A stretch of 64,000 nucleotides of DNA from contig OY987226.1 in assembly GCA_963920705.1 (NCBI GenBank), positions 5,830,501 to 5,894,500 on the forward strand, read 5' to 3'. Below are positions 4,334-63,195 of the stretch, one piece after another (position 1 is the stretch's first letter; each line of letters begins with the position of its first letter). Both the position numbers and the translations under genes were made by a program. The notes below the pieces were generated by a model that had not been told where the DNA came from, ran no database searches, and saw nothing but the letters and a program-made list of their open reading frames with translations. The DNA comes from Odiellus spinosus (taxonomy: Eukaryota > Arthropoda > Arachnida > Opiliones > Phalangiidae).

Positions 4334-4684
4334 CTATTATCAGAAGCCGATGAAACCCTCCTTTGAAGTCTATTACTCCCTGGTCTTGTCTACCCCTCTC
4401 TGTATGGGTTAGTTTCAAAAAGCGCGATTCGTACGCCTCCTAACGGTAGATATTTTCGGAGCGGGAGTTCGTCGAGCGAATATCTCTAGCAGCCTCGGAG
4501 TTCGTCAAAAAACGTCGTCGTTTGTGGAGAGAGAGAATTTCCAATTTTCCGTGGACAGGGGGGTATGAAGTAGGACCCCTCCGATCTCGTAAAATTGGGA
4601 ATTTTACCCATACAGAGAGGAGCGCTAAATCGAACATTAGAGTAGTAGGCTTCGAAGGAGGGTTTCATCTACTTCTGCTATTAT
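4334..4684 (+). mobile_element. Family A MITE, full length, with 7-bp TSD
   Basis: The element (4341-4677, 337 bp) begins CAGAAGCCGATGAAACC and ends with its complement. CTATTAT is duplicated at 4334-4340 and 4678-4684. Inner arms TCTCTGTATGGGT and ACCCATACAGAGA extend the foldback. Short ORFs inside, including frames opening MKPSFE at either end, arise because the terminal repeat itself contains ATGAAACCC. There is no transposase, so it is non-autonomous. Confidence 0.95.
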
Positions 4685-5546
4685 TGCTTGGTCAGTTTGT
4701 TTCGAAAGATTTCAAAGAAGGCAATTAAAATATTTTTTTTTTTTACTATTGTGGTCATTTTTCTAAGGAATTTCCCAAAATGGTACTCAAATTCCATTTG
4801 TAGCTTTTGAAAACCCTATGCCAAACCTTAATTTAAAATATTTGTCGATTTTTTTTTAAACAAAACGAATTTAATTAACAGAAGTTTCGAAGAAGTAGTT
4901 TCTCCATAGCAGAAACCCTAATTGTCACAATGAATACTGTTATCAAGTCACAAGCATTCTTAATGTGAACAAAGCAGTATGGTTAAATGCTACTAATGCG
5001 AACTAGTCCAAATCGGAAGCCTCTATAAGTTCGGATATAAAAGATGTTTAATATCGATAAGAGTTTAATATCTAGGGTGACGGGCTAGAATAATAGTCCC
5101 ACGAGGGACACGTGACCGCCCGTAGGCCTATTACAAATCGCTTCTCCCTGTTTAAAGTGCCTAACTCTCCGCGCTATTCCCAAACGCTAGGTGGCGCGTT
5201 TTTGCGGCCTGGCGGTCCGTGTCACCGGACTAAAGAAGAGCTGACAGCCGCTTTTAGCCGATTAGGGACCTTTGGGACCACCCACGCTCGTCGTACCCTA
5301 TGACGCTATGTCACGTGGAGGGGAAGGGGGTAGAAGAGACGCTAGCAACGTGACCTTATGGAGCTGCCAGTTCGTGCCATTTGTATCTTTCGATGCCGAC
5401 ATCAGGGGCCTTCGCGAATCCCGATTCTTTTATAAATGTATATATTAAAAAAAGAAAATCCTTACTTTATTCATGGCGTCCGGATAGAGTTGCAAAGACG
5501 CGTAATGGTTTCGGTTAACGTAAAAAGTACCATGGATGAGCTTTCT
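4685..5546. other. Spacer with GC-richer island at 5090-5430
   Basis: The left part is AT-rich. The island contains three CACGTG or ACGTGAC-type motifs (about 5109, 5311 and 5350) and a 63-codon frame (5112-5303) with no recognised domain. It has no repeat-family match in the window. Candidate regulatory DNA; a diverged exon is possible. Confidence 0.35.
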
Positions 5547-5887
5547 TTAAAGGGAAGTTTTCAACCTAAAAACAAGTGATTTTTAAAGTAAAAAAATTAA
5601 AAACAAATAGACTAGAAATAACTTACCCGAAAAAGTTTTAGTTGGATTCATGGATATCACCTGATCTCCCCATATTAGGACTAGCGACCAATGACATTGA
5701 TCCATGGCCCTTATATGGGGAATGCAGGTTCTCCATTAATCCAGCTAAGCCTTTTTTCGGGTAAGTTTCAGTTTATTTCTAGTTAAAAACTTGTTTGTAA
5801 ATTTTTTTTACGGGTGAGTTAAGCCTATTTAAACTATAAGGAATCTATAAAACAATCACTGGTTGTTAGTTTGCATTCTACCTTTAA
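5547..5887 (+). mobile_element. Family C TTAA element, diverged full copy
   Basis: It is flanked by TTAA at 5547-5550 and 5884-5887. The left end AGGGAAGTTTTCAACC pairs with the right end, whose complement reads AGGTAGAATGCAAAC. Inside are the mirrored family C landmarks: ACTAGAAATAA...TTACCCG on the left and CGGGTAAG...TTTCTAGTT on the right, plus GGATTCATGGA facing CCAGCTAAGCC. The foldback is near full length and has no coding capacity. Confidence 0.85.
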
Positions 5888-6182
5888 GGATAAGAAATTT
5901 TTGTAACGGTTAAAAATTTATTTTGAAATAGGCCTAGTTTTTCCTTTTCCGGTTTGAAATTTAATGTATATAATAATGTGTTGTGAAATGATGAGTTTAA
6001 AGGGCAACCAACTTTAAAGGATTACATTTTGGGGTCTGTCAGTTCGTAATTTAACGATTTTAAAATATCGTATTTTTACCGTTGTAAATATAAGTTAGGA
6101 ATTATCTAACGTCATAAGGAAACGGCCAATCTAAAATAGAATATATTTACGAGTTGCCATCAAAACCAATTAGGTTTAATGA
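5888..6182. other. AT-rich spacer
   Basis: No gene or repeat family was recognised. Confidence 0.5.
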
Positions 6183-6513
6183 ATTATATCAAGAATCCAT
6201 TCAGGTTCCATAAGAATATGGGAGTATAGCTTTAGCCTCTGGTACCATCCTCCCAACCTTTGTAACAAAAGTTCGTCCGCAATTTTCGCAACATTAGCAC
6301 GCTTAGATCTTTTTTTGGTCGGCTCCATTTTTATTACCCAAAATATTATGTCAAGGTCGTTAGTGGCGCGGGTTAGTAATGTAATGTCAGGAGCGATTTA
6401 CTTGAAAAATCGATTCGAAGCAGACGAACTTTTTCTACAAAGTTTGGGAGGATGGTTATTGAATCGCTGCCCTCCCATATTCTTATGGAACCTGAATGGA
6501 TTCTTGATTATAT
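6183..6513 (+). mobile_element. Family K MITE, full length, with 7-bp TSD
   Basis: The element spans 6190-6506, starts CAAGAATCCATTCAGG and ends with the inverted copy CCTGAATGGATTCTTG. ATTATAT is duplicated at 6183-6189 and 6507-6513. Subterminal inverted pieces include CCATAAGAATATGGGAG and CTCCCATATTCTTATGG. The 71-codon frame at 6315-6530 runs through it and is incidental. The other copy is at 24833-25148. Confidence 0.95.
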
Positions 6514-6886
6514 TATATTCTCAATCATAGTAATTTTTCCTCAATCATAGTAATTTTTCCTATCTAAATTGAAATATATATATATATTAATTCATTTATT
6601 TTTGTAGTTTAAAAGAATACAAGCCATTATATTTGGAATTAAGGTTACTTGATGCAGCGCTTTCCGTAGAATTTGTCAATGATCCAATACACCACTCCAC
6701 TATACTTGAAATGTTGCCCATCGTATGTTAGTTATTCATTCATTCTACATTAAATATTTGGTATTATGACGTAATTTACACCTTCGCAAGATGCGCTATA
6801 GTGGGATCACGACCCACACACGCTTATAGCTATCCAACCTATAAGCGAAGCTTTTAGTCTTGTTTATAGCGAGAAACATTGGTCCC
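6514..6886. other. AT-rich spacer with a 20-bp doublet
   Basis: TCAATCATAGTAATTTTTCC occurs twice head to tail at about 6520-6560. Two short inverted repeats, GTGGG/CCCAC (6801-6817) and CGCTTATAG/CTATAAGCG (6821-6847), precede the coding-like remnant on the minus strand. No gene was seen. Confidence 0.45.
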
Positions 6887-7397: not shown

Positions 7398-7482
7398 TTA
7401 TGGTGTTACGTTTTATTTCCTATCGAATCTCTCCTATACCGTCATCATCTAGGTTAGGTTGTAATTTCAGTATGTATAAAGG

Positions 7483-7820
7483 CAGAAGCCGATGAAACCC
7501 TCCTTTGAAGTCTACTACTCTAATGTTCCATATAGCGCTCCTCTCTGTATGGGTAAAATTCACAATTTTACGAGATCGGAGGGGTCCTACTTCGTATCCC
7601 CCTGTCTACACAAAATTGGAAATTCTCTCTCTCCACAAACGACGACGTTTTTTGGAAGAACTCCAAGGTTGCTTGAGATATTCGCTCGACGAGCTCCCGC
7701 TCCGAAAACATCTACCGTTAGGAGGCGTACGGATCGCGCCTTTTGAGAATAACCCATACAGAGATAGGTAGACAAGACCCGGGAGTAATAGACTTCAAAG
7801 GAGGGTTTCATCGGCTTCTG
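7483..7820 (-). mobile_element. Family A MITE, full length
   Basis: It begins CAGAAGCCGATGAAACC and ends GGTTTCATCGGCTTCTG, 338 bp. Relative to the copy at 4341 the inner region is inverted. The flanks ATAAAGG and ATATAAT are only a weak target duplication. The frames at 7492-7746, 7505-7771 and 7587-7811 are internal to the MITE. Confidence 0.93.
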
Positions 7821-8863: not shown

Positions 8864-9055
8864 ATGCCAAGTTGTATTATAAAAGAATGCAAAAATTTTA
8901 GTTCTCGGTTTGGACTAAGTTTTTATACGGTTCCTGATCATTTAAAGTACCCCGAACTCGCGTCAAAATGGCTAAAATATGCTAAAGAAACAGTGAAAGC
9001 CGCGTATTATACTAAGCCTTTGCCTACGAAGAAATTGGATTGCAGAGTTTGTCAG
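8864..9055 (+). CDS. THAP-domain exon of a transposon gene (probably degenerate)
   Basis: The 64 codons from the ATG at 8864 read as a THAP zinc-coordinating DNA-binding module. It begins MPSCIIKECKN, with Cys4 and Cys9 as the first metal pair. The SFYTVP segment (19-24) holds the conserved aromatic and proline, and Trp36 sits in ASKWLKYA. RVC (61-63) supplies the third Cys. Cys9 to Cys63 is 53 residues, within the THAP range. The expected histidine two residues after Cys63 reads Gln (CAA) if translation continues. A splice donor CAG|GTGCAA at 9055/9056 could instead end the exon there. The 161-codon frame continues to 9349, but the part after 9055 is the shadow of the opposite-strand ORF. 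The domain normally binds DNA at an element's own ends or at host promoters. Confidence 0.7.
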
Positions 9056-9225
9056 GTGCAATTTTCTTTCATCTGGTCTATGTCAATTAAATTTTCGATA
9101 CCGTCATTATTATTCCGCTCTTCCTGTAGTCTATCTCTAATTAAAAGTTCTTCTTCCGTGTACACTGGTTCAACTTCAAACGGATCTATTCGAGAGTCCG
9201 AATCGCCGACGGAGTTAGGCCTAGG
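9052..9225 (-). pseudogene. Acidic ORF facing the THAP exon in element T
   Basis: The 57 codons read PRPNSVGDSDSRIDPFEVEP, then VYTEEELLIRDRLQEERNNN, and end DIDQMKENCT before TGA (9054-9052). The composition is strongly acidic and protein-like. The ORF opens after a TAG with no start codon, and it stops exactly where the THAP exon ends. Further upstream on the same strand a short frame starts with ATG at 9346 and stops at 9254 (MVKLTTTRLNVKSTT...). A neighbouring frame then reads TNGTPTEGASNPGK before a GGTAAG donor-like site. I read this as the first part of a second transposon gene with frameshifts or a small intron and a deleted 3' half. The family is not recognised. Confidence 0.45.
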
Positions 9226-9751
9226 CTACGGCTTACCGGGGTTAGATGCTCCTTCAGTCGGCGTCCCGTTCGTTAGACTGGCGAGCACTGCCGTTATAAC
9301 CTGTCGTCGATTTAACGTTCAAGCGCGTAGTAGTCAACTTTACCATTGAGTAAAAGCTGAGCCAAGTTACTTTGGCCAATCAGATTATTGCCGAAATAAA
9401 AACCTTGAAGTGACGTATCGAATGCGCTCTTGCTTTACAGGAAAGCTTCATACGGGCGCCTATGTGCCCTCAATGTAATTTGTTTTAATTGTTTATTTAA
9501 AAATATACTTAATTTTAAATTTTTTTAACGCTTGAAAAATTGGTTTTGAGTTTAACTAAAGGGTTTGCAGCAAAAATATTTTAACACCGCACCATTCCTT
9601 TAAAAGTCATTATGTGAAAATTAAAAGTAGCATTTCTTCTTAAATTGGTTCCTATTTGCTCCCTATTTTAAAAATTTTGGTTCCTATTTCACCCTATTTC
9701 TAGCCTGAAAAATTCCCTATTTCCCTATTTTTGGTGGGAGTCCTGTAAATG

Positions 9752-11818: not shown

Positions 11819-11821
11819 AGA

Positions 11822-12055: not shown

Positions 12056-12349
12056 GTTATGACAAGGAGGATCAGAGAAGGAGAGGAAATGTGGGGCTGC
12101 GTTGAGTTAGAGAGAGAAGAGCCAACCTCCCACTCGGGTGGAAAGGGGGATAGGAAATTCTCGAGGTAAACTGTTGTCACGTGGTCGCTAGCTAGCGCGT
12201 CTCATAAAAGATTCGTTTTACCAACGTGACAACATTTTACCACGAAACGTCTCTACCCCCGTTCTCCCAGAGTGGGAGTTTAGGCCGACGCAGTAGGAAC
12301 CGCGCCGTCCCCACATTTCCTCTCCTTCTCTGATCCTCCTTGGTTATGA
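12056..12349 (+). mobile_element. Family B foldback MITE, with 7-bp TSD
   Basis: The element spans 12063-12342. The left end begins CAAGGAGGATCAGAGAAGG, and the right end repeats at least 34 bp of it inverted without mismatch. GTTATGA is duplicated at 12056-12062 and 12343-12349. Inner inverted pairs GTTGTCACGTGG/CCAACGTGACAAC and CCCACTCGGGTGG/CAGAGTGGGAG show that nearly the whole element folds back. The frame at 11977-12180 crosses its left side and is incidental. Confidence 0.95.
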
Positions 12350-12589: not shown

Positions 12590-13030
12590 AATTTATTCCA
12601 TAGAAGTAAACAACGCCCTGTAGCTCCGAAATTTATCCAACGAGTGGCGCTTCCGATTTCATTATTTAATCAACTGCTAGCAAGAACGTTCAGACAAGGA
12701 GAGGAAAAGTAGGGCTGCGTTGAGTTAGAGAGAGAAGAGCCAACCTCCCACTCGGGTGGAAAGGGGGATAGGAAATTCTCGAGGTAAACTGTTGTCACGT
12801 GGTCACTAGCGTCGTCGACTACTACGAAGCTGATGAAGGATCCGTTTTGCCCACGTGACAACATTTTACCACGAAACATCTCTACCCCCATTCACCCAGA
12901 GTGGGAGTTTAGGCCGACGCAGAAAGAACTGCGCCGTCCCCACTTTTCCTCTCCTTGTCTGATCCTTCTTGCTGCTAGAGTGTCTCGAATCAGAATCTGC
13001 TGATACATTTACCTTGACCTTTATAAAGTG
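12590..13030 (+). repeat. Family P segment, split by a family B insertion
   Basis: The flanks of the family B copy (to 12680 and from 12972) contain GAGTGGCGCTTCC, then ATTTAATCAACTGCTAG, and continue after the insertion with AGAGTGTCTCGAAT and ATACATTTA. The same sequence without the insertion lies at 25335-25440. The function of this duplicated segment is unknown. Confidence 0.75.
12674..12978 (+). mobile_element. Family B foldback MITE, second copy, with 7-bp TSD
   Basis: The element spans 12681-12971, from CAAGAACGTTCAGACAAGG to CCTTGTCTGATCCTTCTTG. CTGCTAG is duplicated at 12674-12680 and 12972-12978. It is close to the copy 600 bp upstream but differs in the centre (GTCGTCGACTACTACG in place of CTAGCTAGCGCG). 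The minus frame at 12670-12891 is internal and incidental. Confidence 0.95.
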
Positions 13031-14138: not shown

Positions 14139-14935
14139 TTAAAGTGAGACTGTCAGCATTTTTTTTTTTTTGAATCTATGTGGATTATATTTTTATACTC
14201 AATATTTTACACCTCCGGCAGGGTGACCTTTGAAAATTTGAAAATCCTATAGAGGAAATATAGGAAATTTCTTTGCGAAATATAGGAAAATATAGGAAGA
14301 ATTTTATGTAAAATATAGGATAAAATAGGAAGAAATAAGTGTAAAATATATGATAAAATAGAAAAATAATTAAAAGTAGGAACCATGTTTATTATTGCGT
14401 CACAACTCTCGCCACCGGTTTAAACATGGTATTAATATGATCCAATTGCTTAAATAGTATGGAATTTTACAGACTATTTTAACTGGAAAATGTACAGTTA
14501 AGCTAAAATAATCTTATACAACCACAGCTGACCGCATGATTTATAACTTTACCCTTAACTAGAGATTTTGAGTAGAAATATAGGAGATTATAGGAATTGC
14601 CATTAAATTATAGGAGAAAATAGGAAGGAGGTGAAATTATAGGAAAAATAGGAAAAGTGGTCACCCTGCTCCGGGTTTACACGTTCTTATGAAACTTCGT
14701 AATGAAAATGTCAAATATGTTTTTTTTTTTCGTACGAAAGGTAGGATTAAGTACTTATACGAAAAAGACCGCGCGAAAGCGACCTGATTTTAAAAAATTC
14801 GAAAATGACAATTATAATACGTATTTTTATTTTTGCGGCATAATTTTGAATTTTTTTTCAACGATTTTTCCGAAAATGCTGCTCAATTTCCATTTGAAAG
14901 TTTATCAAAAAATATGCATGACTGTCTCACTTTAA
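14139..14935 (+). mobile_element. Family I TTAA element, interrupted by family E
   Basis: TTAA at 14139-14142 is followed by AGTGAGACTGTCAGCAT. The right end ATGACTGTCTCACT is followed by TTAA at 14932-14935. Removing the family E insertion leaves about 340 bp. The right half includes the landmark AAAAGACCGCGCGAAAGCG, shared with 40064-40170 and, inverted, with 52260-52330. The frames at 14702-14935 and 14833-15075 are internal and not judged coding. Confidence 0.8.
14213..14674 (-). mobile_element. Family E CAGGGTGACC element, with 6-bp TSD
   Basis: The element (14219-14668, 450 bp) starts CAGGGTGACC and ends GGTCACCCTG. CTCCGG is duplicated at 14213-14218 and 14669-14674. The body is built of ATATAGGAAA-type words around a conserved centre with ACCGGTTTAAACATGG. 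It sits inside family I, so it is younger than that copy. CAGGG ends suggest hAT-like ancestry. Confidence 0.85.
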
Positions 14936-18757: not shown

Positions 18758-19238
18758 TTAAAGGGAGAATGAAAGGCCGAAACAAGCTATTTTTAATCGA
18801 TTAAGAATGCTAAAATAATGAAAAAACAATATAACTCACCAAAAATATTTCGTTATTTTATAATCAATTTCCAAAGTTCCGATGCTAAGCCTAGGCTGCC
18901 TAGCTCGGTGAACTAGGTTAGCACGACCTGTATTTTTTTTTAACATTCGCGGCTGTTCTTGTCGCCAATCACGAGCGAGTACGCGTATTTTAAAAATACG
19001 CGTACTCGCTCGTGATTGGCAACTAGATCAGACGGGAATATTAAAAAAATACGGCTCGTGCTCGCCTAGTTCGCCGAGCTAGGCAGCCAAGGCTTAACAT
19101 CTGCAAGTTTCGGAACTTTGGAAATTGGTTATAAAATAACGAAATATTTTAGGTGAGTTATATTATTGTTTTTCTCATTATTTTAGCCTTCTTAATCGAT
19201 TAAAATTAGGTTGTTTTGGCCTTTCATTCTCCCTTTAA
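18758..19238 (+). mobile_element. Family D TTAA foldback with a 58-bp central palindrome
   Basis: TTAA (18758-18761) is followed by AGGGAGAATGAAAGGCC. The right end GGCCTTTCATTCTCCCT is followed by TTAA (19235-19238). The arms continue inward (AAAAATATTTCGTTATTTTA on the left and its complement on the right; CTAGGCTGCCTAGCTCGG facing CCGAGCTAGGCAGCC). The centre, 18963-19020, is an almost perfect palindrome of GCCAATCACGAGCGAGTACG and its complement. Only this copy is in the window. It has no coding capacity. Confidence 0.9.
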
Positions 19239-21310: not shown

Positions 21311-21757
21311 TTAAAGGGAAGGTGCAAACATGGCTTTTTTAAGTGTATAGGAGACAATTTAGCGGTCAATAGTATTTATGATCATTCCACCAAAAATCGC
21401 TTTTCTCATCCTCGAATTTTATCCATTTGATGACGTCATAGCATTGTCCCTAACCAAAAATCAAAACTAAGCATTTTTCTATTTTTATTTTAATTAAACC
21501 TGCGCGGACTAACAAGATCGTGACGTCATACCATGGTCAAAAATTTTCTTAAAGGCCAAGGATTTCTTCTGCCTGTAACCTGTGTGTTTCACTGAAAGTG
21601 GGCTCACCTTCTGATCTTCCCCTGTGGGTAGCAAGGCAAAAGAAAGCCTGGAGGGTGAGTTTGTTTCCAGGGTGACAGGCAGAAGAAATCTTACGCCTTT
21701 AAGATCTTTGCGGTTGATGTTAAGGATTTCAAAATATCATTTTCATTTTCCCTTTAA
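21311..21757 (+). mobile_element. Family S TTAA element, interrupted by family G
   Basis: TTAA at 21311-21314 is followed by AGGGAAGGTGCAAACATGG. The right end ATTTTCATTTTCCCT is followed by TTAA at 21754-21757. Without the insertion it is about 290 bp. The terminal match is 7-9 bp with mismatches, so the pairing of ends is moderately supported. A larger relative may be at 53161-54051. Confidence 0.55.
21549..21702 (-). mobile_element. Family G TTAA MITE, about 154 bp
   Basis: TTAA at both ends (21549-21552 and 21699-21702), inner ends AGGCCAAGGATTTCTTCTGC and AGGCAGAAGAAATC...GCCT. The body contains GGGTAGCAAGGCAAAAGAAA and GCCTGGAGGGTGAG. Copies at 47586 and 52401 are in the opposite orientation. 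No ORF belongs to it. Confidence 0.9.
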
Positions 21758-23602: not shown

Positions 23603-24028
23603 TTACACCAGGGTGACCACTTTACCTATATTTCCTATATTTCCACCTCCTTCCTATTTTCTCCTATAATTTAATGGCAATTCTTATAATCTCCTATATT
23701 TCTACTCAAAATCTCTAGTTAAGGGTAAAGTTATAAATCATACTGTCAGCTGTGGCTGTATAAGATTATTTTAGCTTAACTGTACATTTTGCAGTTAAAA
23801 TAGTCTGTAAAATTCCATACTATTTAAGCAATTGGATCATATTAATACCATGTTTAAACCGGTGGCGAGAGTTGTGATGCAATAATAAACATGGTTCCTA
23901 CTTTTAATTATTTTCCTATTTTATCATATTTCTTCCTATTTTATCCTTTATTTTACATAAAATTCTTCCTATATTTTCCTATATTTCGCAAAGAAATTTC
24001 CTATATAGGATGGTCACCCTGATTACTC
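23603..24028 (+). mobile_element. Family E element
   Basis: The element (23609-24021) starts CAGGGTGACCACTTTACC and ends GGATGGTCACCCTG. The flanks ATTACAC and ATTACTC match at six of seven positions, a possible degraded target duplication. Confidence 0.9.
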
Positions 24029-24825: not shown

Positions 24826-25155
24826 ATAGAAGCAAGAATCCATTCAGGTTCCATAAGAATATGGGAGCATAGCTTTAGCCTCTGGTACCATCCTCCCAAA
24901 CTTTGTAACAAAAGTTCGTCCGCAATTTTCGCGACATTTGTACGCTTAGATCTTTTTTCGGTCGGCTCCATTTTTATTACCCAAAATATTATGTCAAGGT
25001 CGTTAGTGGCGCGGGTTAATAATAGATGTCAGGAGCGATTTACTTGAAAAATCGATTCGAAGCGGACGAACTTTTGCTACAAAGTTTGCGAGGATGGTTA
25101 TTGAATCGCGGCCCTCCCATATTCTTATGGTACCTGAATGAATTCTTGATAGAAG
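24826..25155 (+). mobile_element. Family K MITE, second copy, with 7-bp TSD
   Basis: The element (24833-25148) runs from CAAGAATCCATTCAGG to CCTGAATGAATTCTTG. ATAGAAG is duplicated at 24826-24832 and 25149-25155. It is close to identical to the copy at 6190, suggesting fairly recent activity. Confidence 0.95.
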
Positions 25156-26408: not shown

Positions 26409-26785
26409 AGAAAGGACAATATTGTTCCTAAGAGCCCCCTTATTTCTAACAATAGGGGTCCGTATTTTAAGTGGCCTAAACGAACCCTAATGTCGCTAAA
26501 ATGGAGCCCTTTTTAACCCTTCATAATATATAGCGTGGCTAAAATGGAAAACTTATTTTCTCGGGGAATATAAAGACCAGGGGCTTTTGTTTGGGCAACC
26601 ATATCAAGGACTAGTCTGAGCGAAATTGTGGACCAGTTACGATAAATCGGGGGATTACTAAATTTTCTTTTAAAGTGATGATTTCACTTGATTTTTCATG
26701 CAATCAGGACTGTCTTAAAAATCCCGCTTTATCTAAAATTGAACCTGGAAATCTCAGGGTATTAAAGACTAAATATGCAGGGGAA
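26409..26785. other. AT-rich spacer
   Basis: No gene was recognised. Toward the right the words CTGGAAATCTCAGGG and GGGGAATTT lead into the 29-bp array. Confidence 0.45.
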
Positions 26786-27520
26786 TTTAAAAATATTAGT
26801 GAAATTCAGGGCAATTTAAAAATATTGGTGAAATTCAGGGCAGTTTAAAAATATTGGTGAAATTCAGGGCAGTTTAAAAATATTGGTGAAATTCAGGGCA
26901 GTTTAAAAATATTGGTGAAATTCAGGGCAGTTTAAAAATATTGGTGAAATTCAGGGAAATTTAAAAATATTGGTGAAATTCAGGGCAATTTAAAAATATT
27001 GGTGAGATTCCGGGCAATTTAAAAATATTGGTGAGATTCCGGGCAATTTAAAAATATTGGTGAGATTCCGGGCAATTTAAAAATATTGGTGAAATTCCGG
27101 GCAATTTAAAAATATTGGTGAAATTCAGGGCAATTTAAAAATATTGGTGAAATTCAGGGCAATTTAAAAATATTGGTGAAATTCAGGGCAATTTAAAAAT
27201 ATTGGTGAAATTCAGGGCAATTTAAAAATATTGGTGAAATTCAGGGCAATTTAAAAATATTGGTGAAATTCAGGGCAATTTAAAAATATTGGTGAAATTC
27301 AGGGCAATTTAAAAATATTGGTGAAATTCTGGGCAATTTAAAAATATTGGTGAAATTCTGGGCAATTTAAAAATATTGGTGAAATTCTGGGCAATTTAAA
27401 AATATTGGTGAAATTCTGGGAAATTTAAAAATATTGGTGAAATTCAGGGCAATTTAAAAATATTGGTGAAATTCAGGAAATTCATAGCAATTTAAAAATA
27501 TTGGTGAATTTCACTAAATT
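26786..27520 (+). repeat. 29-bp minisatellite (GGGCAATTTAAAAATATT...)
   Basis: About 25 units of 29 bp, consensus CAATTTAAAAATATTGGTGA plus AATTCAGGG. Variants occur in runs (CAGTTT units at the left, GATTCCGGG near 27005-27090, ATTCTGGG near 27325-27420), showing local duplication of neighbouring units. The right flank ends TGAACCCTGG, so the array may have grown inside a CAGGG-ended element. Confidence 0.95.
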
Positions 27521-28207: not shown

Positions 28208-28861
28208 TTAAAGGGAGAATGCAACCTAAAAACAAGTGATTTATCGATTCCATGTCGTTTATATATTCCTAATCCGACAGTTAAAAAAATACAAACAAAT
28301 ATTAAACTAGAACTAAATTTAAAAACTTATCCTCAAAATAAGCTTAGCTGGATTCACCTGAACTCCCCATATAAGGACAAGTGACCAATCGATCGATGGC
28401 TCTTATATGGGGAATGCATGATCACATTTTTCGCTAATCCTTATACGGGGAGTTCATGATATCAAGGAGGATCAGAGAAGGAGAGGAAATGTGGGGCTGC
28501 GTTGAGTTAGAGAGAGAAGAGCCAACCTCCCACTCGGGTGGAAAGGGGGGATAGGAAATTCTCGAGGTAAACTGTTGTCACGTGGTCGCTAGCTAGCGCG
28601 TCTCATAAAGGATTCGTTTTACCCACGCGACAACATTTTACCACGAAACGTCTCTACCCCCGTTCTCCCAGAGTGGGAGTTTAGGCCGACGCAGTAGGAA
28701 CCGCGCCGTCCCCACATTTCCTCTCCTTCTCTGATCCTCCTTGATGATATCTCCTTGAATCCAGCTAAGCCTATTTTGATGTTAAGTTTTAAATTTATTT
28801 CTAGTTTAATATTTGTTTGTAATTTTTTTTCTGTTGTATTAGGATGTTTAAACGATAAGGT
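28208..28861 (+). mobile_element. Family C TTAA element, split by family B and truncated on the right
   Basis: TTAA (28208-28211) is followed by AGGGAGAATGCAACC. The left arm carries ACAAATATTAAACTAGAA and AAGCTTAGCTGGATTCA. It is interrupted by family B at 28463-28743, and resumes with CTCCTTGAATCCAGCTAAGC and TTATTTCTAGTTTAATATT. Just before the expected terminal TTGCATTCTCCCT it is replaced by a partial family A element. Confidence 0.88.
28456..28750 (+). mobile_element. Family B foldback MITE inside family C, with 7-bp TSD
   Basis: The element (28463-28743) starts CAAGGAGGATCAGAGAAGG. ATGATAT is duplicated at 28456-28462 and 28744-28750. It is almost identical to the copy at 12063, including the CTAGCTAGCGCG centre. 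Confidence 0.95.
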
Positions 28862-29071
28862 ACTTCGAGCGAATATCTCTAGCAGCCTTGGAGTTCGTCA
28901 AAAATACGTCGTCGTTTGTGGAGAGAGAGAATTTCCAATTTTCCGTAGACAGGGGGGTATGAAGTAGGACCCCTCCGATCTCGTAAAATTGGGAATTTTA
29001 CCCATACAGAGAGGAGCGCTATATGGAACATTAGAGTAGTTGACTTCAAAGGAGGGTTTCATCGTCTTCTG
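28862..29071 (+). mobile_element. Family A MITE, left third missing
   Basis: It starts within the element at TTCGAGCGAATATCTCTAGC and runs to the normal right end GTTTCATCGTCTTCTG. It abuts the broken right end of family C, so both were probably lost to the same deletion. Confidence 0.88.
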
Positions 29072-29522: not shown

Positions 29523-29874
29523 TTTAAATCAGAAGCCAATGAAACCCTCCTTTGAAGTATATTACTCCCTGGTCTTATCTACCCCTCTCTGTATGGGTTA
29601 GTTTCAAAAAGCGCGATTCGTACGCCTCCTAACGGTAGATATTTTCGGAGCGGGAGTTCGTCGAGCGAATATCTCTAGCAGCCTTGGAGTTCGTCAAAAA
29701 AAACGTCGTCGTTTGTGGAGAGAGAGAATTTCCAATTATCCGTAGACAGGGGGGATGAAGTAGGACCCCTTCTAACTCGTAAAATTGGTAATTTTACCCA
29801 TACCGAGAGGAGCGCTATATGGAACATTGAAGTAGTAGACTTCAAAGGAGGGTTTCATCGGCTTCTGTTTAAAT
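29523..29874 (+). mobile_element. Family A MITE, full length, with 7-bp TSD
   Basis: The element (29530-29867, 338 bp) begins CAGAAGCCAATGAAACC. TTTAAAT is duplicated at 29523-29529 and 29868-29874. Internal variants (TTCTAACTCG in place of TCCGATCTCG) place it in the same subfamily as the copies at 53420 and 62849. Confidence 0.95.
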
Positions 29875-30684: not shown

Positions 30685-30987
30685 CAGGGTTGCCACAGGT
30701 CCGGGAAAAGTCAGGGAATTTGAAAATGAACCAAAAAAGTCAGGGAATTTAAAGATCTTTTAAGAAGCCAGGAAATTTCTATCATTATCTGCTGAAAATA
30801 TTTGAAGCAGTTGTGTAGGTTAGAACAAAGATATGCGTGCAAAAAGTTTGGCGAACGCAATTGCAAAATAAAAGGTTAAAAATTGGGTAGTATTAGCTGA
30901 AATGGTCAGGGAAAATCGTTGGAAAAGGTCAGGGAAAAACCGGGAAAAGTCAGGGAATTTGAATCTGAAAAAAGTGTGGCAACCCTG
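30685..30987 (+). mobile_element. Family H CAGGGTTGCCACA element (hAT-like)
   Basis: The left end is CAGGGTTGCCACAGGTC and the right end TGTGGCAACCCTG. TCATA flanks both sides (30680-30684 and 30988-30992), a possible 5-bp target duplication. The body repeats GGGAAAAGTCAGGGAATTTG. No ORF. The second copy is at 41765. Confidence 0.8.
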
Positions 30988-37224: not shown

Positions 37225-38502
37225 CACGTCAGTTGGGGAGTTATTTGACGTAAATTTTGAAACGTTAATTTTGTCATTGGGAACTTTTGCAAACTAATGC
37301 CAATTAAACTTCGGTTTGCAAAATATAAACTTCGATTTTGTACTGGTGGTAGTGCTGTATTTATCTCCCATCATGCTTTAAAAAGTAGATATGGTTAAAA
37401 ACCTTTCATTTATTAAAATAATTAATTTTATATAATTGGTTTAATGGAGATATAAGTACAATTAACAGTCTTTAGTTCATTTTTTTGCTGTTAATCTGTT
37501 TTAAATGCTTAGCTCATACACATTAGAATTTTTAATTAAGGCTATCAGTGTTTAGATAAATTCCAATTTGTTGTAGGACTGATGGTAGAACTTTGAACTA
37601 TAAATTAAATTAAAATTCCCATGGTTAACATTTGAAGATCGTCTTCGTTGAGTCGAAGAACCTTGAAATTAGTTTCTGATTAGATCCGATTAGATTGTCT
37701 ATATCATTTTAGTTCAACCAAATTCAAGGTACAAATTCCTTCAATTTCATCTTCTCTTTAATTTAAACTCTTATGAAAACTCTTTAGTGTTGAATTTTCC
37801 ACTTGCTTTAAACTGTAGCTAACGTTTCGCTATTAGAGAATAATTCCCACGGATATTCGAATAGTAGCTTAAAGCTCAACTCGCGGGGGCCATCGGGGTT
37901 TAGTTCAACTTAAGTTAGCGGGAGGGTTAAGAGAAAATATTCTCTAGAGGTGATTTTCTCAAAGTTACTCCGTTTTGGGATCAATCTAAAGAGAAGACTA
38001 CGACCTAGCTAGAGTAAGGAAAATGTTACTTAATACTTTCTGATGAAGAGGACTAAATTGGAGATAATGGAATAATTTCGCGGATATACTTATTGATGTT
38101 GTTTACCTCTTAAAGTTCAAAGTTCGAAACCCTTCACGGGGAATTTTAGATTGAGTTAGCGAGAGAGATTCATTGAGTGATTTTTAGATTTTTATCAGGA
38201 TTTGATTTGTCGTTTTGAATTCTTATAAACAGGGAATTTGAAAAGATTTCGGGAATATTATAAATGTATTCCCCGGTGTAAGACAAGTTTGCTAAACTTA
38301 ACATTTTGTATTACCGTGTCTCAACTTTCGCTGGTGTGAAACTTGCTTTTGAACAAAAGTATAGTGTCTTAGAAATTAGTAATTATAAATTAATGATTTT
38401 CATAAATTAAATTTTATTTTTCTATAAAATTTCCGTGTTAAATATACACTTTATTGGATATATATAATCTTCAAGACAATCATTGGGGAAAACCATTCCC
38501 AC
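37225..38502. other. AT-rich spacer
   Basis: No gene was recognised. A GAGAAAATATTCTC palindrome lies at about 37931. Confidence 0.45.
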
Positions 38503-38837
38503 ATCTTTAGGAATGATCCCCAAATCTTTAGGAATGATCCCCAAATCTTTAGGAATGATCCCCAAATCTTTAGGAATGATCCCCAAATCTTTAGGAATGA
38601 TCCCCAAATCTTTAGGAATGATCCCCAAATCTTTAGGAATGATCCCCAAATCTTTAGGAATGATCCCCAAATCTTTAGGAATGATCCCCAAATCTTTAGG
38701 AATGATCCCCAAATCTTTAGGAATGATCCCCAAATCTTTAGGAATGATCCCCAAATCTTTAGGAATGATCCCCAAATCTTTAGGAATGATCCCCAAATCT
38801 TTAGGAATGATCCCCAAATCTTTAGGAATGACCCCCA
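38503..38837 (+). repeat. 21-bp minisatellite, open in frame on both strands
   Basis: Fifteen to sixteen nearly identical 21-bp units, AATGATCCCCAAATCTTTAG plus G. Because 21 is a multiple of three, the plus strand reads MIPKSLG repeats (121 codons, 38483-38848). The minus strand reads DLGIIPK repeats (149 codons, 38871-38422). A degenerate related piece (TTTAGGTATGACCCCCACAT) is at about 38992-39011. Mutual openness on both strands follows from a stop-free unit and does not indicate a gene. Confidence 0.97.
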
Positions 38838-41261: not shown

Positions 41262-41703
41262 TTAAAGGGAGAATGCAACCTAATTACAAGTGATTTTCTT
41301 ATCGATTCCTTATCGTTTAAATAGGCCTAATCCACCGATAAAAAGTTTGCAATACAAATATTAAACTAGAAATAAATTTAAAACTTACCCTGAAAATAGG
41401 CTTAGCGAGATTGATGGAGATCCTGAATCGCGTCCGTGTAAGGTCTAGCGACCAATGAGCAAAGGCCCGTCGTTCACGCGAGATCTCCACGAGACTTACG
41501 TAGCTTGCGATTGGTCGCTAGACCTTACACCCGAGGAAATCAGGAGCTCCATGAATCCCACTAAGCCTATTTTCAGGGTAAGTTTTAAATTTATTTCTAG
41601 TTTAATATTTGTTTGTAAATTTTTTAAATAGTGGATTAGGCCTATTTAAACAATAAGGAATCGATAAAAAATCACTTGTTGTTAGGTTGCATCCTCCCTT
41701 TAA
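41262..41703 (+). mobile_element. Family C TTAA foldback, full copy
   Basis: TTAA at 41262-41265 and 41700-41703. Ends AGGGAGAATGCAACC and GGTTGCATCCTCCCT. The arms are nearly mirror images: ACTAGAAATAAATTTAAAAC and its inverse, GCGACCAATGAGCAAAG facing GCGATTGGTCGC. This is the best-preserved family C copy. Confidence 0.95.
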
Positions 41704-43743: not shown

Positions 43744-44514
43744 GAAACAATGTTATTTCGATAAATTCCAGTCGATTTATGCCAACACGATTTTGGACAA
43801 AGCGGATATTTCAAATTTAATATTTATTTTCTTCACTGACCATAACGTCCAAGCTATTAAATTTTTATAGGAAAACAATAGAAAACTTAAAGTCTAACGC
43901 CCCCTCCCCCCAACGTCTGTGAAAAGTGACCATTATAATAATAAACCCATTTGAAATAGTCCAATTATTGAAAGGTTTTCGGCCCAAAAAAACGAGGAAA
44001 TACAATTGAAAAAAAAAAAAAGTGGCAAGCAATTTTAAGATATAAAGTTGAATAGCCGACGGTCAAGTGTCCGTAATTACGATTGGTGCGTGGGAGTGAA
44101 TAACGCACGGTAATGGTCAATCTTTATAAATGGCACCACTAGGAAAGAAACAGAGCGTATATTAGCAATTTTGACAGTAAAATTTCTTGACCGAACGTTT
44201 TGAGAATAATTTAAAGTTCATATGAAAGCGTTTATCAAAAAAAATTAATTTCAACTAACGCTGAAACTAACGAAAATATTTGGTTTTGAATGTTGCTGAT
44301 TAATACCATCTTTCGCCATAACAATTAGTAACAACCTAGAATGGTCGCTTCCAAGACTCTTAACTTTTAATATTTTAATTTTATAATTTAGTTTAAATAA
44401 AATATCTGATATATTTTAAAGAGATAAAACTAAAGATGTATGAATTTTAAATTTTCATATTTTAGAATTTATTTTCTAAAGTTTGCTCAGGTTTGCATTT
44501 CAGGGTAATGTGAA
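43744..44514. other. AT-rich spacer
   Basis: No gene or repeat family was recognised. Confidence 0.45.
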
Positions 44515-45570
44515 ATTCAAACCTGTCTAAATTAATATAAACCTTAATTTAAACCTTCTAAATTAATATAAACCTTAATTTAAACCTTCTAAATTAATAT
44601 AAACCTTAATTTAAACCTTCTAAATTAAAATAAACCTTAATTAAAACCTTCTAAATTAATATAAACCTTAATTAAAACCTTCTAAATTAATATAAACCTT
44701 AATTAAAACCTTCTAACTTAATATAAACCTTAATTCAAACCTTCTAAATTAATATAAACCTTAATTTAAACCTTCTAAATTAATATAAACCTTAATTTAA
44801 ACCTTCTAAATTAATATAAAGCTTAATTCAAACCTTCTAAATTAATATATACCTTAATTCAAACCTTCTAAATTAATATATACCTTAATTTAAACCTTCT
44901 AAATTAATATAAACCTTAATTCAAACCTTCTAAATTAATATAAACCTTAATTCAAACCTTCTAAATTAATATATACCTTAATTCAAACCTTCTAAATTAA
45001 TATATACCTTAATTCAAACCTAAATTAATATAAACCTTTATTTAAAGAAAAAATAAACCTTCTAAATTAATATAAACCTTAATTTAAACCTTCTAAATTA
45101 ATATAAACCTTAATTTAAACCTTCTAAATTAATATAAACCTTAATTTAAACTTTCTAAATTAATATAAACCTTAATTTAAACCTTCTAAATTAATATAAA
45201 CCTTAATTTAAACCTAAATTAATATAAACCTTCTAAATTAATATAAACCTTAATTTAAACCTAAATTAATATAAACCTTCTAAATTAATATAAACCTTAA
45301 TTTAAACCTTCTAAATTAATATAAACGTTAATTCAAACCTTCTAAATTAATATAAACCTGAATTTTAACCTTCTAAATTAATATAAACCTGAATTTAAAC
45401 CATCTAAATTAATTTAAACATTAATTCAAACCTAAATTAACTTAAACCTTAATTCAAACCTAAATTAATTTAAACATTAATTCAAACCTGCCTGCATTAA
45501 TTTAAACGTTAATTCAAACCTATCCGAATTAATATAAACTTTAATTAAAACCTATCCGAATTAATATAAG
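44515..45570 (+). repeat. 31-bp AT-rich minisatellite (TTCTAAATTAATATAAACC...)
   Basis: About 34 units built from TTCTAAATTAATATAAACC and TTAATTTAAACC. Units vary in length: some drop the CCTTCT block (near 45020, 45210 and 45260), and the right edge degenerates to 20-30 bp words. It is more variable than the other arrays, so probably older. No ORF. Confidence 0.95.
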
Positions 45571-47322: not shown

Positions 47323-47576
47323 CCATTAGCTGAAGCAGATGAAACCCTCCTTTGAAGTATATTACTCCCGGGTCTTGTTTACCCCTCTCTATATGGGTTA
47401 GTTTCAAAAAGCGCGATTCGTACGCCTTCCAACGGTAGATATTTTCGGAGCGGGATATGAAGTAGGACCCCTCCGATCTCTTAAAATTGGGAATTTTACC
47501 CATACAGAGAGGAGCGCTATATGGAACATTAGAGTAGTAGACTTCAAAGGAGGGTTTCATCGGCTTCTGCCATTAG
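47323..47576 (-). mobile_element. Family A MITE, internally deleted, with 7-bp TSD
   Basis: The element (47330-47569, 240 bp) has both terminal arms and both inner arms but lacks about 100 bp of the middle: GGAGCGGG joins directly to ATATGAAGTAGGACC. CCATTAG is duplicated at 47323-47329 and 47570-47576. The intact duplication shows the short form either transposed itself or shrank after insertion. Confidence 0.95.
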
Positions 47577-49266: not shown

Positions 49267-49721
49267 CAGGGTGACCACTTTTCCTATATTTCCTATTTTT
49301 TCCTATATTTTCACCTTCTTCCTATTTTCTCCTATAATTTAATGGCAATTCCTATAATCTCCTATATTTCTACTCAAAATCTCTAGTTAAGGGTAAAGTT
49401 CTAAATCATACTGTCAGCTGTGGCTGTATAAGATTATTTTAGCTTAAATGTACATTTTCCAGTTAAAATAGTCTGTAAAATTCCATACTATTTAAGCAAT
49501 TGAATTATATTAATACCATGTTTAAACCGGTGGCGAGAGTTGTGACGCAATAATAAACATGGTTCCTACTTTTAATTAATTATTTTCCTATTTTATCATA
49601 TATTTTACACTTATTTCTTCCTATTTTATCCTATATTTTACATAAAATTCTTCCTATATTTTCCTATATTTCGCAAAGAAATTTCCTATATAGGATTTTC
49701 AAATTTTCAGTGGTCACCCTG
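49267..49721 (+). mobile_element. Family E element, full copy
   Basis: CAGGGTGACCACTTTTCC at the left and CAGTGGTCACCCTG at the right. The flanks TTAAAGCG and TTTAAGCG (offset by one base) match at seven of eight positions, a possible 8-bp duplication typical of hAT elements. The E copy at 14219 instead shows 6 bp, so the duplication length is not settled. Confidence 0.9.
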
Positions 49722-50664: not shown

Positions 50665-51016
50665 GTTTTAGCAGAAGTAGATGAAACCCTCCTTTGAAGT
50701 CTACTACTCTAATGTTCCATAAAGCGCTCCTCTCTGTATGGGTAAAATTCCCAATTTTACGAGATCTGAGGGGTCCTACTTCATACCCCCCTGTCTACGG
50801 AAAATTGGAAATTCTCTCTCTCCACAAACGACGACGCTTTTTTGACGAACTCCGAGGCTGCTAGAGATATTCGCTCGACGAACTCCCGCTCCGAAAATAT
50901 CTACCGTTAGGAGGCGTACGAATCGCGCTTTTTGAAACTAACCCATACAGAGAGGGGTAGACAAGACCAGGGAGTAATAGACTTCAAAGGAGGGTTTCAT
51001 CGGCTTCTGGTTTTAG
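50665..51016 (-). mobile_element. Family A MITE, full length, with 7-bp TSD
   Basis: The element (50672-51009, 338 bp) starts CAGAAGTAGATGAAACC. GTTTTAG is duplicated at 50665-50671 and 51010-51016. Confidence 0.95.
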
Positions 51017-51590: not shown

Positions 51591-52022
51591 CTATTATCAG
51601 AGGTATATAATAACCCCCTTCGGGGGGAAGTAAGAAAGGTAGGCAAAATCGACGAACAACAAGTGCCCGGCGTAAATCGCGGCGGATCGACACACCGCTT
51701 TACTCCCAAAAAATAGTTACACCATTTTGAACCTCCCTAAATTTTCCCTACGCACACTTCCGGAACTTGCGGGCTGAAGTCAACCTTCGAGTCCAATTTA
51801 ACAGACAGCCTGACTCCTGAGAAAGGAAGTTCTAAACACAAATCGAGCCGTCTTGTTTATACAAAGACCATTTACTAGAGTAGCGACATTGAGAAGTCCA
51901 GCGCGAGCTAGTGGCCTAGATAGTCAGCAGCGGGCTCTTGTTGTTCGTGATTTTTAGCATTGGTAGTATAGGGGCTTTCATACTTTCCCCCGAAGGGGGT
52001 TATTATATACCTCTGCTATTAT
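51591..52022 (+). mobile_element. Family F foldback element, with 7-bp TSD
   Basis: The element (51598-52015, 418 bp) starts CAGAGGTATATAATAACCCC and ends with the complement. CTATTAT is duplicated at 51591-51597 and 52016-52022. The terminal repeat itself contains a small hairpin, CCCCCTTCGGGGG. The middle is moderately GC-rich, about 340 bp, shared with the copy at 61565, with no intact ORF. Confidence 0.95.
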
Positions 52023-53160: not shown

Positions 53161-54051
53161 TTAAAGGGAAGGTGGAAAGAATAATTTTAATCCATGTTAT
53201 TTACTTGTTTAATATGAACATCATCAAGCCTAATTACTGCTATTTGTTTGTGTAAATTATATCAAGTGTTATACTAAGATAACTAGTCCAAGTGGCTAAA
53301 AACATCGGTACAAAAAGTACACCAGATTTCTAATTATTTCTAGAAAAATTCCAATATTCAGGGTCAGGTTCAATTGGCACGAGTTAACAGAGGGTAAATT
53401 CCGATGTAGTTAGTAAAACCAGAAGCCGATGAAACCCTCCTTTGAAGTCTATTACTCCCGGGTCTTGTCTACCACTCTCTGTATGGGTTATTCTCAAAAG
53501 GCGCGATCCGTACGTCTCCTAACGGTAGATGTTTTCGGAGCGGGAGCTCGTCGAGCGAATATCTCTAGCAGCCTTGGAGTTCGTCCAAAAAACGTCGTCG
53601 TTTGTGGAGAGAGAGAATTTCCAATTTTCCGTAGACAGGGGGGATGAAGTAGGACCCCTTCTAACTCGTAAAATTGGGAATTTTACCCATACAGGGAGGA
53701 GCGCTATATGGAACATTGGAGTAGTAGACTTCAAAGGAGGGTTTCATCGGCTTCTGGTAAAAATAGTTTCAGGTGTACAAGGAGAAATGTATTTCTACAA
53801 ATCAAGGATATATTAGATATCAAAAAGAAAATCGAAATATTAGAAATCAAAATAAATCAAGGAAATTTTATTAAAAAATCAGAAGAAAACCAGGAAATAA
53901 TTATTGAAATAAAACGAAATATCGGAATCATATCGTGGATGAGAAGAAATCCTAATAAATTTCTGATTATTATGGCACGTAACCAATAATTAATTCATTT
54001 GATATCTATTTTTAAAGTCCGTCATTTTTGACGATTTTACCTTTCCTTTAA
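53161..54051 (+). mobile_element. Possible family S TTAA element, interrupted by family A
   Basis: TTAA (53161-53164) with AGGGAAGGTGGAAAGAA. ACGATTTTACCTTTCCT with TTAA (54048-54051). The ends match only roughly. Right of the family A insertion, a Lys/Ile/Glu-rich plus frame to 53989 (IKRNIGIISWMRRNPNKFLI) may be a trace of coding sequence or just A-rich DNA. Confidence 0.4.
53413..53763 (+). mobile_element. Family A MITE, full length
   Basis: The element (53420-53756, 337 bp) has flanks GTAAAAC and GTAAAAA, a 7-bp duplication with one change. The frames at 53429-53647, 53519-53734 and 53529-53816 start in or cross the element and are incidental. Confidence 0.94.
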
Positions 54052-61471: not shown

Positions 61472-62010
61472 ATCATCTTTATAAACTGATTTATTATAAT
61501 TTCAACTCTCGGTTGTTGAAGCCGAATCGATTTGAAACTGGCTCCCGAAGCAGTTTCGTGAAATCAGAGGTATATAATAATCCCCTTCGGGGGGAAGTAT
61601 GAAAGCCCCTATACTACCAATGCTAAAAATCACGAACAACAAGAGCCCGCTGCTGACTATCTAGGCCACTAGCACGCGATGGACTTCTCAATGTCGCTAC
61701 TCTAGTAAATGGTCTTTGTATAAACAAGACGGCTCGATTTGTGTTTAGAACTTCCTGTCTCGGGAGTCCGGCTGTCTGTTAAAATGGAGTCGAAGGTTGA
61801 CTTCAGCTCGCGAGTTCCGGAAGTGTGCGTAGGGAAAATTTAGTGAGGTTCAAAATGGTGTAACTATTTTTTGGGAGTAAAGCGGTGTGTCGATCCGCCG
61901 CGATTTACGCCGGGCACTTGTTGTTCGTCGATTTTGCCTACCTTTCATACTTCCCCCCGAAGGGGGTTATTATATACCTCTGGTGAAATCAATTCAAAAT
62001 AATTTAAAAA
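61472..62010 (+). mobile_element. Family J fragment, split by family F
   Basis: GCCGAATCGATTTGAAACTG and CCCGAAGCAGTTTCGTG match family J. After the family F insertion AAATCAATTCAAAAT resumes. Outer ends were not found. Confidence 0.55.
61558..61989 (-). mobile_element. Family F foldback element, second copy, with 7-bp TSD
   Basis: The element (61565-61982, 418 bp) is inverted relative to the copy at 51598 and very similar along its length. GTGAAAT is duplicated at 61558-61564 and 61983-61989. The frame at 61887-62126 starts inside it and is incidental. Confidence 0.95.
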
Positions 62011-62467
62011 GAAAGTTTCCCATTCTCTTGACTACTGCGAAACATTTTGGAACTTTGACTTTTAGGCTTAAATATTATATTATTTCTTTTCGATCCTCCC
62101 TTTGTGGGCTTCAATCAGCCTTTTGAGAATAAAGTCGACTATTTCTCGAGCTATGTGCGTGCGCAATCGGTTCACGAATCGAAACCGATTGAAGCAATAT
62201 TGTAGGAAATAGACAAAAACGAATGCATTCGTACTGCCTTCTAGTTCATTCCATATCTTTCCCTGAATTTCTACTATATGGGAAGCGAGCTAGCTAGTTC
62301 ACGATCTTTATCACACGTTACTCGCACGCGCGGGCGTATATGTGTACCTATATGGGCCTATATCATTTTTTATTTGCTCTTGGAATCAAAACCCCTACTG
62401 CGCCAGACTCGGGACGACCCCCTTTAAAGCCTTCATATTGTATTCGGTGAAGGCTTCATGCGGGAAA

Positions 62468-62498
<31 letters not shown>

Positions 62499-62841
62499 CA
62501 TCTCTTTTGTGGTGTTTAATACCAGTATTTATTGGAATAACCGAGATTGAAGCCCAGCAGAGAGATTGAGTTTGAATAAATGGAAAAGCTAGGGGGTTTG
62601 CATTTTTAATATGTTGGGTAAACTTTCAAGTGTTTGTTCGATGTATATACGAGGGTGGATTATGTATTCTATATATACGATGACCGTTTAAAATTGAGGA
62701 ATATTGCGTGAAGCGAATCACCGAAACTTACGCGATTTAAATCATTAGTCCATTTTCGATTTCATTGATATCCGAATTACAATTTATCGTCCGTTTGATA
62801 TGAAAATTTTGGTTTGAAATTTTGAATATGGCTTTTTAATA
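62011..62841. other. Spacer with hairpin plus poly-A at 62427-62498
   Basis: AAGCCTTCA (62427-62435) and TGAAGGCTT (62448-62456) form a perfect 9-bp stem with a 12-nt loop. About 12 bp later begins an A-rich run of about 30 bases. This could be the 3' end of a retroposed RNA, but no body was recognised. The 62280-62400 stretch is GC-richer without an ORF. Confidence 0.35.
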
Positions 62842-63195
62842 GTATAATCAGAAGCCCATGAAACCCTCCTTTGAAGTCTACTACTCCAATGTTCCATATA
62901 GCGCTCCTCTCTGTATGGGTAAAATTCCCAATTTTACGAGTTAGAAGGGGTCCTACTTCATCCCCCCTGTCTACGTAAAATTGGAAATTCTCTCTCTCCG
63001 TAAACGACGACGTTTTTTGGACGAACTCCAAGGCTGCTAGAGATATTCGCTCGACGAACTCCCGTTCCGAAAATATCTACCGAACTTAGGAGGCGTACGA
63101 ATCGCTCCTTTTGAGAATAACCCATACAGAGAGGGGTAGACAAGACCCGGGAGTAATAGACTTCAAAGGAGGGTTTCATCGGCTTCTGATATAAT
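62842..63195 (-). mobile_element. Family A MITE, full length
   Basis: The element (62849-63188, 340 bp) has flanks GTATAAT and ATATAAT, a 7-bp duplication with one change. The minus frames at 62777-63031 and 62958-63236 start in or cross the element and are incidental. Confidence 0.94.

Follow-up and report, generated by a model that had tools for sequence, protein, structure and literature searches.

Seven-base-pair target site duplications point to P-superfamily transposases as the probable movers of four MITE families in Odiellus spinosus

Within the P superfamily of transposons, 1360 has a modal target site duplication (TSD) of 7 bp (274 of 279 cases) and the motif GTTNAAC, whereas the hAT element hobo duplicates 8 bp in 1,196 of 1,198 cases, as reported in PMC3276498. 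Three further reports describe Galileo, also of the P superfamily, whose 7-bp TSD GTANTAC/GTATTAC lies within a 15-bp palindrome (PMC4168063), the Drosophila P element, which combines 31-bp terminal inverted repeats (TIRs) with 11-bp subterminal repeats (PMC7776569), and the P-MITEs of Anopheles gambiae, with P-like ends, 8-bp TSDs and known P masters (PMC1562414). These papers on Galileo, 1360 and Anopheles P elements were the ones that surfaced from the literature on 7-bp P elements and MITEs, and other reports may exist; in PMC1852546, the element with a 7-bp TSD is a truncated LINE.

We have analysed a stretch of 64,000 nucleotides of the Odiellus spinosus genome (contig OY987226.1, positions 5,830,501 to 5,894,500, hereafter the window), which harbours four MITE families, denoted A, F, B and K, with a common 7-bp TSD. 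From the comparison with transposons of the same genome, we consider it very probable that these families are non-autonomous elements moved in trans by THAP-domain transposases of the P superfamily, of the 1360/Galileo type.

Ends and duplications of the four families

All four families are short (approximately 280-418 bp), non-coding, high-copy and of uniform length, and are bounded by TIRs and a TSD, as is characteristic of MITEs. Their ends read CAGAAG in A, CAGAGG in F, CAAGGA in B and CAAGAA in K; the resulting CARRRR ends are real, the RRRR pattern having been spotted post hoc. Across the genome the TIR ends of K have 3,250 exact pattern matches, those of F and B have 4,516 and 2,842 matches with at most one mismatch, and family A yields 1,937 first-look candidates. 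Family B was found genome-wide by its TIR pattern, a nucleotide search that used the element itself as query having given no candidate in spite of its presence in the window; the words it contains may be too frequent for such a search.

Within the window we have checked 14 two-ended copies, of which 11 have an exact 7-bp TSD (A 4, F 2, B 3, K 2). In family A these are located at 4341-4677 (forward strand, CTATTAT, with a TIR matching at 14/16 positions), 29530-29867 (forward, TTTAAAT), 47330-47569 (forward, CCATTAG, a copy with an internal deletion and mutated first bases CTGAAG) and 50672-51009 (reverse, GTTTTAG). The family F copies lie at 51598-52015 (reverse, CTATTAT, TIR of 41 bp) and 61565-61982 (forward, GTGAAAT), and those of family K at 6190-6506 (ATTATAT) and 24833-25148 (ATAGAAG), both on the forward strand. 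Family B is represented, also on the forward strand, at 12063-12342 (GTTATGA), 12681-12971 (CTGCTAG, a diverged copy with 87% identity to the one at 28463) and 28463-28743 (ATGATAT, TIR of 34 bp). Two further copies, both of family A, have a TSD matching at 6/7 positions, GTAAAA(C/A) at 53420-53756 (forward) and (G/A)TATAAT at 62849-63188 (reverse), and the A copy at 7483-7820 (reverse), which the initial annotation had not listed, has no TSD (4/7 match). Family A also left two fragments on the forward strand, one cut by the window edge (1-111) and one corresponding to family positions 132-338 (28865-29071). The window thus contains all 13 duplications originally listed, with two being imperfect, and a recount reproduced the reported frequencies of T at position 2 (T2, 12/13) and of A at position 6 (A6, 12/13).

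The analysis was extended to 91 copies of the genome, comprising 36 of A (31 loci and 5 from the window), 22 of F, 22 of K and 11 of B. This is a non-random sample made up of best-scoring matches, copies inside fetched loci, window copies and seven B copies picked from among the 100 matches listed, from which two mis-paired rows and the mutated window copy at 47330-47569 were left out. An exact flush 7-bp TSD is present in 78 of the 91 copies (A 29, F 17, K 21, B 11), a 6/7 match in another eight (A 5, F 2, K 1) and neither in the remaining five. When exact flush repeats of 3-11 bp were scanned, 7 bp was the longest in the 78 copies and no other exact length was observed, the other 13 copies having none in this range; indeed, a hAT-type 8-bp TSD was found in none of the 91 copies. 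The 7-bp duplication proposed to be common to A, F, B and K is therefore borne out well beyond the window.

A palindromic target site

Analysis of the 78 exact sites evidences the self-complementary nTnnnAn pattern that the initial annotation had drawn from the window: T2 is found in 69, A6 in 63 and both in 56, with A6 being weakest in family B (7/11). Among the first 71 exact sites, T2 occurs in 64 and A6 in 58, with binomial probabilities of 2e-22 and 3e-18, respectively, against the window composition, and TAnTA is found in 26 of these 71 sites as compared to 0.8% of window positions. The motif can be written as RTAWTAY, an A+T-rich palindrome, and the fuller target site, a palindrome near TNARTAWTAYTNA, extends past the TSD. 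In a leave-one-family-out site model, three families recognise the fourth every time, and none of 20,000 random draws performed as well. The pattern could be seen as the product of chance or of base composition, as the genome is A+T-rich and the initial sample amounted to 13 sites; however, the confinement of exact duplications to 7 bp in 78 of 91 copies, the above site frequencies and the outcome of the leave-one-family-out model refute this reading, whose probability we regard as practically nil. The 7-bp spacing common to the families and the self-complementary nTnnnAn site thus denote a type of transposase making 7-bp staggered cuts, and a palindromic motif with T2 and A6 is what is expected of P elements of the 1360/Galileo type.

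P and hAT transposons of the same genome

The initial annotation had regarded the site as a one-base-shorter version of that of hAT elements, which would call for an unusual hAT lineage cutting 7 instead of 8 bp apart. Many hAT ends start with CAR, nTnnnAn resembles the nTnnnnAn of hAT sites, and hAT transposases are plentiful here (220 candidates, of which 150 were scored). However, the one hAT family for which both ends were resolved, an element of 3836 bp with a PF05699 domain and the TIR CAGTGGCGCCGCCAG, has an 8-bp TSD in 4/4 copies and ends that differ from those of the MITEs. Window elements with CAGGG ends were considered as a further hAT control and set aside, their flanking repeats being unclear.

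A distinct scenario resulted from the P side of the comparison, which likewise consists of one family with both ends resolved. This transposon, P801, has 3777 bp and an open reading frame of 801 amino acids with THAP, TNP-like RNase-H and GTP-binding domains. For this protein, the PDB gave one match within an E-value limit of 0.01, namely 6p5a, the P transposase of Drosophila (E 3e-21). Three copies carry the frame intact, and a comparison over 3,300 bp showed no difference between two of these. Seven inverted TIR pairs of P801 were found in the genome and all seven are flanked by an exact 7-bp TSD (TTTGAAG, ATTATAC, ATACAGA, GTTTTAC, GTCAATC, GTTTTAC and ATTAAAC), with T2 in 7/7 and A6 in 5/7. 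Under the MITE site model, none of 100,000 random draws reached the joint score of these seven sites; taken one by one, three of them fit it weakly, as 16-29% of window 7-mers score equally well. The proposal of a shortened hAT site thus finds no support in the one resolved hAT family at 8 bp and the one resolved P family at 7 bp at this type of site, and the near-constant 8 bp of hobo (PMC3276498) also goes against a hAT origin, which we hold to be very unlikely. These same-genome controls suggest that relatives of P elements, and not hAT, make the 7-bp footprint.

The organisation of the ends is also in line with P elements. All four MITE families have a TIR of 34-41 bp and, further inside (51-123 bp from the ends), a second, subterminal inverted repeat, as determined from consensus sequences for A, F and K and from one copy for B; in the K consensus, a 35-bp TIR goes along with a 37-bp subterminal inverted repeat. 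P801 has a comparable plan, with a 31-bp TIR and a subterminal repeat at 95-129 bp, and none of 200 shuffles matched the terminal/subterminal plan of any of the five elements. The terminal and subterminal repeats of the four MITE families are unrelated to one another beyond CARRRR. P801, which also leaves 7-bp footprints, starts with CGGTGC and not with CARRRR, and the CARRRR ends are for that reason without a direct case tying them to P in this genome.

P transposases are abundant, with 386 candidate matches, of which the 150 scored are all above the PF21787 cut-off and several sit in open frames of 600-930 amino acids. The termini of five more P regions (L070, L071, L073, L074 and L075) yielded no convincing TIR/TSD pair. 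One of these, L074 on contig C16, contains a 929-amino-acid P gene that has P domains and lacks clear ends, perhaps a host gene.

Searches for transposases covered the P and hAT superfamilies. An autonomous element with the MITE termini, which the initial annotation had proposed to search for, did not emerge: the routes that follow gave no P element whose ends read CAGAAG, CAGAGG, CAAGGA or CAAGAA. Comparison of the MITE termini with 30 P loci (about 3.4 kb each) and 30 hAT loci (about 3.2 kb each), many of which may fall short of the element ends, returned weak matches with 2-3 mismatches within the first 16 bases, apart from a B copy nested inside a hAT locus (L054) with its own 7-bp TSD, GTTTTGT. 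Comparison of the MITE interiors with these 60 loci and seven further P stretches brought to light no coding remnant of the sampled P or hAT genes, the best E value being 0.016, the nested B copy aside. Searches for K, F and B with simple TIR patterns revealed no autonomous partner among the matches listed (the first 100 places, all on contig C1). One candidate on this contig (C1:17157361-17162388) was resolved into two independent K MITEs, in each of which the exact pattern had overlooked one end. TTAGG repeats were observed near the end of contig C1.

The negative outcome of these routes would also be compatible with a driver from a superfamily beyond P and hAT. Dada is a superfamily with 6-7 bp duplications, and it, or an undescribed one, could drive the MITEs. 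However, P801 shares the MITE motif in the same genome, and the motif agrees with those given for 1360 and Galileo in length and in T2 and A6; we thus consider such a driver highly improbable.

Proposed mechanism and comparison with known systems

Our preferred reading remains that P-type transposases move the four families. Such a transposase would insert the two ends of the element into an A+T-rich palindrome with RTAWTAY at its centre, with 7 bp between the joining points, and gap repair would then leave a 7-bp duplication with T2 and A6. The THAP domain presumably binds the subterminal repeat, and different P lineages may serve different MITE families. Several P transposases are favoured over one because the repeats of the four families are unlike. 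One transposase lineage with 7-bp spacing had been suggested for all four. If this lineage is taken to be the P superfamily as a whole, the suggestion may be right; one enzyme for all is unsupported, given that the repeats are unrelated beyond CARRRR and that no autonomous partner was found. It is unlikely, in our judgement, that one 7-bp P transposase or a close group cross-mobilises all four through little besides CARRRR and a family-specific subterminal site, over thousands of insertions.

Four high-copy MITE families are thus pointed to the P superfamily by a contrast within one genome, 8 bp for hAT versus 7 bp for P, with one family on each side. Sites with T2 and A in the next-to-last position do not by themselves separate hAT from P, and duplication length helps. 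The intact frame in three copies makes P801 a natural subject for the question of what sets 7- versus 8-bp spacing, in which it can be compared with the solved Drosophila P transposase 6p5a.

In respect to known systems, hAT elements (hobo, Ac and relatives) share with the MITEs T2 and an A in the penultimate position of the site, but have an 8-bp TSD, as does the one hAT family resolved here. The Anopheles gambiae P-MITEs resemble them as MITEs with P-like ends belonging to P elements, but have an 8-bp TSD and known masters, as opposed to 7 bp and no master found here. The combination of a TIR and a separate subterminal inverted repeat is the plan of the Drosophila P element. Galileo, from Drosophila, shares a 7-bp TSD in a palindromic site, although its TIRs are long, repetitive and Foldback-like, unlike the 34-41 bp TIRs of MITEs of this size. 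1360 (Hoppel, ProtoP), also from Drosophila, shares the 7-bp TSD with T2 and A6, and its motif GTTNAAC has close counterparts among the P801 sites, for instance GTTTTAC; it belongs to a different genome, its motif differs from the RTAWTAY of the MITEs, and the likeness concerns TSD and motif. This kind of element, the 7-bp P type, is already known, and A, F, B and K would be new members through which the 7-bp spacing seen in 1360 and Galileo is carried over to a genome of 443 Mb that is rich in P transposases.

Target site duplications of the MITE families

A search for CARRRR...YYYYTG pairs whose terminal repeats match recovered the reported elements in the window together with their flanks; the copy at 47330-47569 (target site duplication, TSD, CCATTAG), whose start is mutated, was examined separately. 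An exact 7-bp TSD is present in 11 of the 14 two-ended window copies, a 6/7 match in two and none in one (7483-7820); on recount, the frequencies of T at position 2 and A at position 6 given in the initial annotation for its 13 duplications proved correct.

The survey was extended to the assembly (443 Mb, 286 contigs), of which the window is C2:5830501-5894500. Flanks of A, F, K and B copies were read from fetched loci and short stretches, and copies that happened to lie within other loci were added. With two mis-paired rows excluded, 91 copies were left (A 36, F 22, K 22, B 11), a non-random sample composed of best-scoring matches (20-28 of the 40 scored in each of families A, F and K), copies from the window, fetched-locus copies and the first-listed B ends. 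Exact 7-bp TSDs flank 78 of these copies (A 29, F 17, K 21, B 11), eight have a 6/7 match and five lack a recognisable duplication, while an exact flush duplication of any other length was found in none of the 91 copies examined. T occupies position 2 in 69/78 exact TSDs and A position 6 in 63/78, the weakest adherence to the latter being that of family B (7/11). The symmetrised site approximates TNARTAWTAYTNA (71 exact sites, sampled before the last seven B copies), and a site model trained on three families predicts the remaining fourth in every combination. Taken together, these results therefore show that the 7-bp pattern is real, palindromic and common to families A, F, B and K.

The K copies average 99.6% identity to their consensus (20 copies out of the best 40 of 1,799 candidates) and identity to the window copy is 98-100% among the F copies (best 40 of 957 candidates); judged by this identity, the best-scoring K and F copies are recent. 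The K end has 3,250 exact matches in the genome, and with at most one mismatch the F and B ends number 4,516 and 2,842, respectively. On contig C1, the first 100 F ends to be listed include 81 within 0-3.13 Mb and two between 3.13 and 16.4 Mb. The latter interval contains many matches to both P and hAT transposases; it seems that the MITEs lie in other parts of the chromosome than the transposase genes. TTAGG runs, a repeat that points to an arthropod, lie up to about 3.6 kb from the C1 end, and the same pattern is also internal to C1.

P and hAT controls within the genome

Transposases of both superfamilies are plentiful, with at least 150 scored matches each to PF21787 (P) and PF05699 (hAT). 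The P control, P801, has an open 801-aa frame in three copies, two of them identical across 3,300 bp; the copy on C1 measures 3777 bp and has a perfect 31-bp terminal inverted repeat (TIR) starting CGGTGCC. Its protein contains THAP, TNP-like RNase-H and GTP-binding domains, all above cut-offs, and has a single PDB match at E ≤ 0.01, to 6p5a (E 3e-21), the P transposase of Drosophila. The TIR occurs 14 times in the genome (≤ 2 mismatches), as seven inverted pairs, and all seven copies have an exact 7-bp TSD, with T at position 2 in 7/7 and A at position 6 in 5/7. None of 100,000 random sets fits the MITE site model as well as these sites do jointly; singly, three of the seven score only modestly. 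As the P801 ends are CGGTGC, 7-bp P transposition in this genome does not need CARRRR ends. One copy (C17:8078788-8091780) probably contains nested insertions, since its ends are 13 kb apart and the exact 7-bp TSD ATTAAAC is retained.

The sites had initially been read as a one-base-shorter hAT version. The hAT control, with an open 882-aa frame and TIR CAGTGGCGCCGCCAG, has 8-bp TSDs in 4/4 copies (TAAGGAAA, TTCTGTTT, CTCATGCA and GGCATTCG), the contrast with P being that of one resolved family per superfamily. No autonomous element with MITE ends was found among 30 P and 30 hAT loci, many perhaps short of the element ends, or the first-listed K, F and B TIR matches. The probable assignment of the MITEs to the P superfamily is built on footprint, motif, plan and in-genome controls, and not on a shared-end master element.

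Element anatomy and neighbouring sequences

Each MITE family has a TIR of 34-41 bp and, apart from it, a subterminal inverted repeat. In the consensus this is CCTCTCTGTATGGGT at 55-72 bp in A, ACGAACAACAAG(A/T)GCCCG at 55-85 bp in F and a 37-bp repeat at 51-91 bp in K; one B copy has a 24-bp repeat with three mismatches at 98-123 bp, and in P801 the repeat is GCTTTTACTACCGTAG, at 95-129 bp. In 200 shuffles, none of the five was equalled. In Drosophila P, TIRs of 31 bp are accompanied by transposase-binding sites and by subterminal repeats of 11 bp (PMC7776569). The subterminal repeats are unlike between the MITE families, which suggests differing binding specificities and hence several P transposases rather than one.

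A 161-aa ORF at 8864-9349 (+) in the window, THAP-like over residues 4-67 (21.1 bits, just below the Pfam cut-off of 23.9), may be what is left of a P-type gene. Elsewhere, at C16:6739500-6745800, a single long open frame (2298-5075 of that locus, 929 aa stop to stop) combines THAP, HTH, two-part RNase-H and GTP-binding domains with a weak P C-terminal match; clear transposon ends were not found at this locus, and the frame could be a P-derived host gene. The window also holds TTAA-flanked inverted-repeat elements with TIRs starting AGGGA or AGTGA (18758-19238, 41262-41703, 14139-14935 and 21311-21757); in the first two the inverted arms are long and almost complete. These elements may form a MITE group of their own that targets TTAA. 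Elements with CAGGG ends differ in their flanking repeats, namely CTCCGG (6 bp) at 14219-14668, ATTACAC/ATTACTC (6/7) at 23609-24021, TCATA (5 bp) at 30685-30987 and none clean at 49267-49721. The window further contains six long minisatellites (736-1889, 2614-3373, 26778-27477, 32041-33959, 38498-38837 and 44514-45569), whose units measure 21-32 bp; four are 97-99% uniform.

Comparison with published elements

PMC3276498 gives, for 1360, a modal TSD of 7 bp (274/279) with motif GTTNAAC, and modal TSDs of 8 bp for both P (1,207/1,226; GTCCGGAC) and hobo (1,196/1,198; GTNCGNAC), with ANAGT...ACTNT as a tendency of the P group. Galileo has a 7-bp TSD, GTANTAC/GTATTAC, with three 8-bp exceptions (PMC4168063), and Anopheles P-MITEs have 8-bp TSDs (PMC1562414). 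The 1360 and Galileo sites therefore make 7-bp nTnnnAn sites an already known trait of part of the P superfamily, to which, within the literature searched, families A, F, B and K look like new additions of the 7-bp type.
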